Assembly (NCBI RefSeq): GCF_008831285.2
Contig: NC_045145.1
Coordinates: 14,648,040-14,712,039, forward strand
Reading direction: 5' to 3'
Source: Nymphaea colorata
Lineage: Eukaryota; Streptophyta; Magnoliopsida; Nymphaeales; Nymphaeaceae
DNA: 64,000 nt
Shown here in pieces: positions 46,088-55,717 of this stretch (positions are counted from its first letter, which is position 1; every line of letters starts with the position of its first letter). The position numbers were made by a program, and so were the translations under genes. The notes under the pieces are model-generated. The model made no database searches and was not told where the DNA came from. It saw only the letters and a list, made by a program, of their open reading frames with translations.

Positions 46088-49000
46088 ATGGAATCTGACG
46101 GAGGAATGGTGTTCGCCCCGCCGAAGGACCGGAGGCCTGATGCCCTCGGAGACCTTAAAGTCCTTCCTGACGAGCTGCTCTGCGCCATCTTTGAGTCCTT
46201 GTCTCCTTCCGACGTTGGCCGCCTTGCCTGTGTTAGCAGGTCCGTCCTCTCCCTCCATCTCTCCGTGTATTCTTCAGGATTGAGTAGACTATTGGGTTTT
46301 CTTTCTTCGCGGTTGTTTTTTCTTTTTCCGTTTTGAAGCGGTCAAAAAAACTTCGAATTTATGGTTGTTTCTTTATTGGCTAAAATCTCATATAGGTGAC
46401 TTTCTTTCCTTTTATTGATTTGCCCTTCCTGTTGGTATTGATTTCTTATATACGTATGCTTTCAGTTGAACACAATTCATGTAGGAAATTGGTATACGAC
46501 GGTGTTGTTTCCTGTCTTTAACTAAGGAACGTATTCAGATGTACCTATCTCAAGCCATGGTTGAGAATTCTCTTGTTTTGTCTGAAACCGAATCAATGGT
46601 CTGGGTCTCCTGTTGTTTAAGAGTGATCCTTCCACAATTTTACCAATTTTTTATTCGTCGGCCACTTCTTGATCGGTAACCTCAAAATGATAGTCTGTCC
46701 TTTATACCCAATATGCCAACAATTGCAGCAAAATGTTAGACCTAATAGAATGTCTATCAGAAACAATGTCAACTTAGAAGGGAGAAAGGTGAATAACTGT
46801 CGTCATATAAATTTTATTTTAAAGGAGATCAAAACTTGTATCCTGATGTTTTGTCAAAGGTGAAGTTCAGATGCAATCTCAAAATGGCGGTCTTCAGAAA
46901 GGTGAAGATCTCCAGACATGGTGATCTTACTTAGCATTTGGAAAGCCTCATGGCAAGTAGGCTTCATATTCATCTTTATGCTGCCCTGTTACTAGACGAA
47001 ATATTTAAGAGACAATGGTTAGGACATTAACTGAATCATCCCAGAATGTAATGTTAATGCTGTCAACATATTAGTTGAACTGCAGATACATAAAATTCAA
47101 GTCCAGGATGGATTTTGCTGATCAGATGCCCTACTTTCAACGAGTTTGTTGAGCTTGACAAACTGTAGTGCAACCAACTTCAAAAATCTTGGCAAGACTC
47201 ATGGACGAAGGGTCATCCAGACTGGACCCAGATGTTCTTGGACTTGTGGTACTAATACTTACTTTCTAATTTGGTAGAGTGCGTTCTAAGTTCTAACCTG
47301 GTAGAGTTCAGTGTAACCCCACATGGCTAACACATGTAGTTAAAAGCTATAACCATGAAGTAGCAGACCTCATAAGAAGGCTTAGGCTGCACCTACCAGG
47401 GCCTAAGTGGGCCTACTTGATAGAAAAAGTGGAGAAAAGGTAAAATGGAGAAAAAAGGTGACGTAAAAATAGGTCAAAGCTGAGAGGCTTTGAGGGGGGA
47501 AAAAACTCCACTCCCATCATTATACCTCAAGACAAAACAATAGAAAAAAGGAGTTAAGGTTAAACCTTAAAAACTAATGCATCATTTTCAGGTTGCCTTG
47601 TGCCTAAGCCTCGACATTTAGGCTACTGCCTAGCACCCAGGCAACCTTTAAATACAAAGTGATTATAGCAGGAAAAAAGAAGTGTAAAGAGTTATCAGTG
47701 AAGTTGTGCTTGTGTATGCTGCATGTGATTACAATGAACAATTTCTTTTCTGTGTATCGAGCAATTTTTTTTATGTTTTTGGGCCTCATAAGTATTTGTA
47801 TCTGCTTTATTGTTGAGACAATTGTTTTTTGGGGTTTTGTGTGCTTTGAGGTCGAATGATCTGATGAAGCAGAGTGGAAATCTTATTTTTTCTTGACTTT
47901 AATTGTTTGCAAGACAATTATCTTCTGGGGTTTTTTGTGTTGTAAGGTCAAACCATCTGGTGAGACTGAGACCACATGGAGACTAAATTTTGTCATTTTG
48001 TTTTCTTGTTGAGGCAACTTCTTTTGGTGTTGCTTTAAGGTTGAACTATCTTGAGGTAGAGTGCATGCTTAAAATTTTCTAACTATTCTATTTATGTGTT
48101 ATGTGTTTTTACTTCCCAGTGGCTTGTACATCTTCTGCAATGATGAACCACTATGGATGAGTATATGCCTTAGAAGTGCAGGAGGTCTGCTTGAATACCG
48201 TGGCACTTGGAAAGCAACTGCATTATGTGAATATGTATGTGGAATATGAAAGTTTATTTTCTTCCGCACTTAATGGATTTGTTGTTTTCTGCATTTACAG
48301 CGGTTCTTCTCTTTTGGTGGTGATCTTCGCACTTGATTTGATCTTCGCACTTGATTTGTTTGATATGGTTTGAAATGTCATTATGAAAACTATGTTTCAT
48401 TTAAGATGCAAAAATCCTAATCCATCCTCTAGGTGTATCATCTGATTAGTGATTAGCCTTTTATATCCACTCTTTCTCCACAAAACTGACAAGTTGAGCA
48501 TGTTTGTTTTTCTGTCTTACAGTTTGGCTTCTTGCCTGGATGCATTGATCCTTGCAGAAAACCAATGTGCTTTGATGGTAAATCTAGCTGCTATTTTATT
48601 CAGAATTTCTAAATCTCTCAACTTCATATATATTATGATTATTATCTTGGGGCAGTTCCTAAACATCTTTATATGTCTTATTTCTTACATTCAGCAACTT
48701 CTTTAAATATTTTATTGGATGATTCTGCAGGATTCAGTTCTATGTTTTTGTACAAAAGATGGTATAGGTGTTTCACTGCATTAGATGGATTCTCAATGGA
48801 CATAGGGAAGGTGGAGAGGAAGACAAACCTCACCTTGGAAGAATTTTGTGTTGAATATGATGGAAAAAAACCGGTAAGAACAAGTTATGATCATTCAGTT
48901 TTAACCACAATGTCGGCCTAGTATTCCCTTCAGATAAACTATATATTTCATTGTTCCTAATTCTTTATCATGTGAAACTGGTCATTGACCTCTGGACCTA

Positions 49001-55000: not shown

Positions 55001-55717
55001 AAGCTACGGGCTTCCTTTGATAACATGCACTGTGCAGCCTAAGTCAGATACAGATGTCCAAGTGGATCTGGAGAAGTTTAAACGAATATCTTATCGTGCC
55101 ATGTATGTGTTTAAATAACTTTTATACTGGTTTTCTTGCTTTCGTTATGGTTTTAAACCAATTGCTGTCTGCCACTACGATCCTTTTGGTCTCATCCAAG
55201 TTTTGCTTTCACATTCTTCATGATATGGTCTTTCATTTACATCAGAATGGTCAGATTTATTTGCACTTCTTCTTGGAGTTTTGGTCCTTTTCCCGTTTAG
55301 GAGCAAGTAACCATGAATATAATTGTAGTGGTGATAATTAAAGTGATTGAGTCCTCTTTGTTCATCAGTGACACTGAATATGTGATTTTGTTGGCTTTTG
55401 TCTTTTGTTTACTGAAGAGATTACTTTTAGTCTGCATGTGGAATTTTCTTTATTGGAAAGGCTTTCTGGACGAATGTGAAATATATTGTTGATATCTCTG
55501 GAACCACCATTTTTAAGCAGAATAAAAGGCCTTTCTGTGTCGAATTTTCTGGATTAATGCAAAATTATATTTGTTATTTAGGTGCTACTGTATCTTGCAT
55601 GAAGACAATGTTTTGGGTGTCATATTCGATATGTGGAAGGCGTTAAGAAAATGCGAGTCATGGGAAGAAGTTGAGGCTGCTGTCTGGGGATGCCTGAACA
55701 ATTATCAACCTGTTTAG
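46088..55717 (+). CDS. JMJ21: F-box and JmjC-domain protein with C-terminal phosphotransferase-like fold (JMJ21, At1g78280-like)
   Basis: Sixteen exons: 46088-46239, 48120-48234, 48523-48577, 48731-48873, 49656-49853, 49940-50139, 51475-51574, 51784-52374, 52557-52679, 52823-52903, 52982-53310, 53390-53692, 54083-54158, 54263-54488, 54922-55102, 55582-55717. All introns are GT-AG and the frame closes at 1002 residues. Residues 25-70 are an F-box (SCF ubiquitin-ligase adaptor). The JmjC domain is JMJD6-like: Fe(II) ligands His270, Asp272 and His355, and the 2-oxoglutarate Lys287, with near-identical spacing to JMJD6. So it is probably an active Fe(II)/2-oxoglutarate oxygenase. The C-terminal third resembles aminoglycoside phosphotransferases: a catalytic-loop-like [10 protein letters not shown] (His838, Asp840, Asn845) and a metal-binding-like [12 protein letters not shown] (Asp891). 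The exon 2 end (donor GTATGT at 48235) is the least certain border. Confidence 0.93.
47370..47650 (+). repeat. CCTAGG-rich insertion in JMJ21 intron 1
   Basis: Starts with GGCTTAGGCTGCACCTA and GGGCCTAAGTGGGCCTA. It continues with a purine-rich middle containing AAAAAACTCCAC and ends GCCTAAGCC...TTTAGGC...GCCTAGCACCCAGGCAA. The plan matches the inverted copy at 40090-40325. No coding capacity. Confidence 0.55.
50619..50772 (+). repeat. Long interrupted (TC)n tract in JMJ21 intron 6
   Basis: About 154 bases of almost pure TC, broken regularly by single TTT steps. It ends in TCGCAG at 50771-50776, which looks like a splice acceptor with an extreme polypyrimidine tract. Confidence 0.95.
50908..51156 (-). 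other. Unrecognised minus-strand frame inside JMJ21 intron 6
   Basis: An 82-codon frame antisense to the host gene with balanced amino-acid use (for example [18 protein letters not shown]). It may be the remnant of an inserted coding sequence, since it sits directly after the (TC)n tract. I recognise no family and see no promoter or splice partners. Confidence 0.2.
51377..51404 (+). repeat. (TC)13 tract ending in CAG, JMJ21 intron 6
   Basis: A second TC run, again ended by CAG (51402-51404). It lies 70 bases before the true exon 7 acceptor at 51473-51474, inside the same intron as the longer TC tract. Confidence 0.9.

Follow-up and report, generated by a model that had tools for sequence, protein, structure and literature searches.

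What does a presumed histone demethylase do with a kinase domain? This question is raised by a gene of Nymphaea colorata whose predicted protein joins an F-box, a JMJD6-type oxygenase and an aminoglycoside phosphotransferase (APH)-like tail. In the accessible parts of the published work on this plant clade, the APH domain is named and the protein is handled as a histone demethylase, while the third domain is hardly discussed. An apparently full kinase active site, nearest to a family that phosphorylates hydroxyl groups, would make a direct test possible, both of whether a presumed demethylase phosphorylates something and of whether the substrate may be the product of its own oxygenase.

Our preferred reading, to which we give a probability of about 0.75, is that the gene is an orthologue-type member of the JMJ21 or JMJD6-with-APH clade, encoding an F-box, a JMJD6-type oxygenase and a predicted APH(7'')-like kinase fold, with all catalytic residues kept. 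Going by the published layout, it may be the orthologue of At1g78280 itself.

Gene model and domain layout

On the plus strand of the window (the whole 64,000-nucleotide stretch that was analysed), 16 predicted exons at 46088..55717 splice into 3009 nucleotides including the stop, or 1002 residues. The coding region runs from an ATG at 46088 to a stop at 55715-55717, and 15 of 15 introns are GT...AG (Table 1). The model was spliced by eye from open frames, splice signals and homology, and then checked by script. The check reproduced, as one open frame, the 1002-residue protein that an earlier sequence-only reading had spliced by hand, and all eight residue numbers given there (His270, Asp272, Lys287, His355, His838, Asp840, Asn845 and Asp891) were correct. 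A long CT-rich simple repeat lies within intron 6 (50614-50772), with other CT runs at 51378-51402 and 53840-53869.

Table 1. Features of the JMJ21-type gene, in positions of the window
Feature	Position	Strand	Basis or remark
Whole coding region	46088-46239, 48120-48234, 48523-48577, 48731-48873, 49656-49853, 49940-50139, 51475-51574, 51784-52374, 52557-52679, 52823-52903, 52982-53310, 53390-53692, 54083-54158, 54263-54488, 54922-55102, 55582-55717	+	16 exons, single open frame
F-box, residues 25-69	46160..48174	+	Exons 1-2, intron-interrupted; Pfam
JMJD6-type JmjC oxygenase, residues 134-380	48808..51960	+	Exons 4-8; PDB match and Pfam
Fe(II) ligands His270 and Asp272 (presumed)	50084..50092	+	Identical in JMJD6 alignment
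2-oxoglutarate lysine Lys287 (presumed)	50135..50137	+	Identical in JMJD6 alignment
Fe(II) ligand His355 (presumed)	51883..51885	+	Identical in JMJD6 alignment
APH(7'')-like kinase-fold tail, residues 517-1002 (predicted)	52369..55714	+	End of exon 8 to exon 16; sequence comparison
Lys569, aligned with nucleotide-binding lysine of APH(7'')	52850..52852	+	BLASTP, MAFFT, hhalign
Glu586 (52901-52903) and Glu588 (52985-52987)	52901..52987	+	One is the candidate partner of Lys569
Catalytic loop His838-x-Asp840-x4-Asn845 (predicted)	54308..54331	+	BLASTP, MAFFT, hhalign, window scoring
Asp891 of LDFGD, metal-binding position (predicted)	54467..54469	+	Pfam, phmmer, BLASTP, MAFFT, hhalign, window scoring

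The first two domains are recognised in a Pfam scan of the whole protein. Matches to F-box-like (residues 25-69, E 2.3e-11, 43.7 bits against a cut-off of 24.3) and F-box (26-63, E 1.4e-6, above cut-off) correspond to the N-terminal F-box of the JMJ21-type clade; we take an F-box to be present in JMJ22 (At5g06550) as well. Cupin_8 (153-371, E 9.6e-23) and JmjC (257-370, E 4e-15) likewise exceed their cut-offs, and JmjC_2 stays under its own. Against the PDB, residues 134-380 align with JMJD6 structures, including human JMJD6 (PDB 3ld8), at E 1.2e-60, well ahead of JMJD5 (3.8e-11). The full Fe(II)/2-oxoglutarate set claimed in the sequence-only reading holds up, as His270, Asp272, Lys287 and His355 are identical residues in the JMJD6 alignment, giving the His-Asp-His and Lys of the clade's JMJD6-type JmjC domain. 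As in the family, His270, Asp272 and His355 would be the Fe(II) ligands and Lys287 the 2-oxoglutarate lysine. The match to human JMJD6 spans the oxygenase part alone, and that protein is not known to have an F-box or a kinase domain.

The layout of F-box, JMJD6-type oxygenase and APH domain is not new. According to the accessible parts of two papers, the JMJD6 proteins of Arabidopsis, rice, tomato and maize fall into two clades, one with a C-terminal APH domain (PMC3567966, 2013) that is described in barley as well (PMC10178440), the other without it (PMC3567966). With the layout already in print, the gene would be a further member of this clade (JMJ21/JMJD6B, At1g78280 type, with SlJMJ and HvJMJ counterparts), which likewise has an F-box, a JMJD6-type JmjC and a C-terminal APH domain in one protein. 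Compared by published description, no difference in layout was found, and the 1002 residues are near the 959 of the F. vesca counterpart of AT1G78280 (table in PMC4822149). In contrast, JMJ22 (At5g06550, JMJD6A), also a plant JMJD6 with JmjC, belongs to the clade described as lacking APH, and the F. vesca counterpart of AT5G06550 has 519 residues in the same table.

The earlier remark that the tail is rarely annotated as a kinase fold is right only in part: PF01636 in the clade had been published (PMC3567966, PMC10178440). A literature search, with subscription journals mostly outside its reach, found no discussion of catalysis by the APH part in work on the plant clade, and no publication combining JmjC, F-box and aminoglycoside phosphotransferase, or phosphotransferase and JMJD6; one publication combines JmjC with PF01636. 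The accessible parts of PMC8555302, PMC12743301 and PMC7020257 hold nothing on the APH domain.

The C-terminal tail and its relatives

Scanned alone, the tail (residues 517-1002) reaches 24.5 bits (E 2.6e-5) against Pfam APH (PF01636), above the cut-off of 23.2, which matches the C-terminal domain of the clade; in the whole protein, the APH match at 873-927 stays below it at 20.9 bits. In the PDB, phmmer pairs the tail with hygromycin-B 7''-O-kinase (6iy9, E 4.3e-5) by summing four colinear segments, each insignificant by itself. With the tail as sole query, no credible solved relative other than this APH(7'') kinase came up. Acyl carrier protein (E 0.11, 0.18) and matrix protein 1 (E 1.5, 1.6) in the PDB search, and ectoine_ehuC (0.0025) and PRK15100 (0.077) in a profile search, were judged to be chance matches. 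BLASTP against one Streptomyces APH(7'') protein gave 41.6 bits (E 2e-8 for the single comparison), with a maximum of 28.1 bits among 1000 tail shuffles (mean 16.9, sd 2.2) and 20.8 bits for the reversed tail. hhalign against a thin profile (Neff 1.3) of six APH(7'') proteins aligned the tail almost end to end (95.4%, E 1.8e-8, 273 columns).

Could the resemblance be due to chance, with no kinase fold in the tail at all? The low whole-protein APH score would fit this, as would the motif H-x-D-x(4)-N, no rarity by itself: shuffling the 486-residue tail 100000 times with its composition kept produced it in 3761 cases. A VIKIY-like lysine motif is also weak alone, as it arises in 7786 of 100000 shuffles. 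The fuller pattern H-x-D-[LIVM]-x3-N-hydrophobic-x-hydrophobic came up in 108 of 100000, and in none of the 100000 with hydrophobic-hydrophobic-D-[FW]-[GSED]-D at most 60 residues further on, these patterns having been picked after the sequence was seen. A chance motif was ruled out by the shuffles together with profile comparison. Since the BLASTP and hhalign scores, as well as the APH assignment published for other plants (accessible parts of PMC3567966 and PMC10178440), also argue against it, we consider chance resemblance of the tail as a whole hardly credible.

These comparisons support a predicted APH-superfamily kinase fold, although not quite as the sequence-only reading had it. That reading likened the C-terminal third to aminoglycoside/choline-type kinases, and proposed a fold-match check of residues 600-1002 against both types. 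The predicted superfamily fold with its catalytic residues stands, but no choline kinase appears in any match list, and the predicted kinase domain begins near residue 540-555 instead.

Nor is the tail itself an APH(7'') enzyme. In an alignment of the tail with five APH(7'') proteins (299 columns with letters in all six rows), it keeps 62 of the 172 columns that are invariant in the five. An alignment with four other Streptomyces phosphotransferases was left aside. Relative to all five it carries insertions of 58 (622-679), 25 (726-750) plus 17 (761-777), 9 (826-834), 23 (853-875) plus 8 (882-889) and 19 (926-944) residues. Scored with the NCBIfam APH(7'')-Ia model, whose cut-off is 640, the tail reaches 25.3 bits. 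By these scores it is built like, or works like, the APH(7'') family, yet is not that enzyme. The whole-protein APH score, the NCBIfam score, the individually insignificant phmmer segments and their placing of 869-876 opposite the catalytic loop, the thin hhalign profile and the long insertions all count against the preferred reading. Exon 14 folded alone (pLDDT 40.7) placed strands across the catalytic loop and was given no weight.

Searches sensitive to close relatives only found none of the tail in phages or plasmids (tblastn, E 0.1). A tail peptide pattern picked out 4 stretches in viral_contigs and 7 in genome_contigs, 0 of them confirmed, and the JmjC part had no peptide-pattern match in viral_contigs, again with close relatives alone detectable. 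In PHROGs, 0 families were matched.

The putative kinase active site

Seven positions, taken as catalytic or candidate catalytic in the superfamily, were compared with the five APH(7'') kinases. All seven (Lys569, Glu586, Glu588, His838, Asp840, Asn845 and Asp891) match residues invariant in the five (hypergeometric 6e-4, for positions of our own choice). This bears out the two motifs singled out earlier, the catalytic-loop-like H-x-D-x(4)-N (His838, Asp840, Asn845) and the DFG-like LDFGD (Asp891). The N-lobe, absent from the sequence-only reading, matches APH(7'') too, at Asn558-Pro559-Val560, Lys569 and Glu586/Glu588, as does the hinge at Trp680-Pro681. With the Lys, Glu, H-x-D-x4-N and Asp of the DFG-like strand that characterise the bilobal fold of the superfamily all present in the sequence, the kinase active site looks intact.

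BLASTP, MAFFT and hhalign all place the catalytic loop at 838-845, whereas phmmer sets 869-876 (HGVLNVPN, without the Asp) opposite HGDLHGTN of 6iy9. When 473 tail windows were scored against the five APH(7'') loops, 835-848 came first at 23.8 (next, 8.8); among 472 windows scored for the DFG strand, 888-902 led at 32.4 (next, 16.4). A degenerate loop at 869-876 was rejected because its window scores 8.4, in third place among the 473, compared with 23.8 for 835-848, and because the other three methods agree on 838-845. This assignment, which is that of the sequence-only reading, requires a 31-residue insertion in the hairpin after the loop, as the Asp of the DFG-like strand lies 53 residues beyond the His in the tail, against 22 residues in all five APH(7'') proteins.

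The main rival to the preferred reading is that the tail may be a pseudokinase. It would have kept the fold but transfer no phosphate, acting instead as a scaffold or in binding, whether to recruit a substrate or to sense a small molecule or nucleotide. The modest share of APH(7'')-invariant columns, the insertion between loop and LDFGD, and the degenerate loop implied by phmmer's alignment are all in its favour. However, the retention of all seven catalytic positions and the three-way agreement on the loop make a pseudokinase somewhat unlikely.

Possible activities and genomic setting

The analysis shows the three predicted domains, each with its key residues, within one polypeptide. If all three are active, as the preferred reading would have it, the F-box would dock to SKP1 and place the protein itself, or a client of it, at an SCF ubiquitin ligase. 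The JMJD6-type Fe(II)/2-oxoglutarate domain would hydroxylate lysine, or demethylate arginine, on a protein, as has been described for JMJD6, and the tail would phosphorylate a hydroxyl group with a nucleotide as donor.

These activities need not be linked. The tail may be a small-molecule kinase that was joined to a JMJD6-type protein but acts independently of it, on a substrate resembling an aminoglycoside or a sugar alcohol. In line with this, 24 of 24 PDB sequences matched by a profile of the six-row alignment are antibiotic phosphotransferases, but that list is biased, because the profile is dominated by, and built from, the five APH(7'') proteins. The fused layout is also kept in monocots and dicots (accessible parts of PMC3567966 and PMC10178440), which argues for a joint role and leaves a separate kinase rather doubtful.

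Another possibility is sequential modification: a lysine would first be hydroxylated by the JMJD6-like domain, and the hydroxyl so formed would then be phosphorylated by the APH-like tail. JMJD6 carries the name lysyl-hydroxylase in its PDB entry, and the fusion of oxygenase and kinase domains is by itself suggestive at most. A further parallel may be human AGPHD1, presumably a member of the APH family. It is the hydroxylysine kinase gene, whose product is a GTP-dependent kinase of free 5-hydroxy-L-lysine (PMC9961460, accessible part), and so offers a chemical precedent. Yet its substrate is a free amino acid, and the tail matched APH(7'') and not hydroxylysine kinase, although no hydroxylysine kinase was among the queries. 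No publication joining 'hydroxylysine kinase' with JMJD6 was found in the literature search, again mostly outside subscription journals. Sequential modification is improbable, and slimmer still are the chances of a complete two-step mark, in which a protein lysine would be hydroxylated and its hydroxyl phosphorylated to give protein-bound phosphohydroxylysine, coupled by the F-box to ubiquitination.

Several other genes were recognised in the window. Head to head with the JMJ21-type gene, on the minus strand, lies an NSUN2-type (TRM4-like) RNA cytosine methyltransferase gene (37358-45557), with Pre-PUA_NSUN2 at 37358-38011 (E 2.7e-20) and an RsmB/F methyltransferase domain at 41670-42065 (E 1.8e-12). 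About 530 bases separate its likely start codon, at 45557, from the start of the JMJ21-type gene; its putative first exon was assigned after the N terminus of NSUN2. Further away, a stop-free open frame of 855 residues on the plus strand (14333-16897) holds the B-lectin, S-locus glycoprotein, PAN and protein kinase domains of a G-type lectin receptor-like kinase. On the minus strand at 20530-24052 lie exons encoding the ABC_tran and ABC2_membrane domains of an ABCG-type half transporter. A Rab-type small GTPase, with CCSS at its end, is represented on the plus strand at 32015-34934 by two exons of the Ras family.
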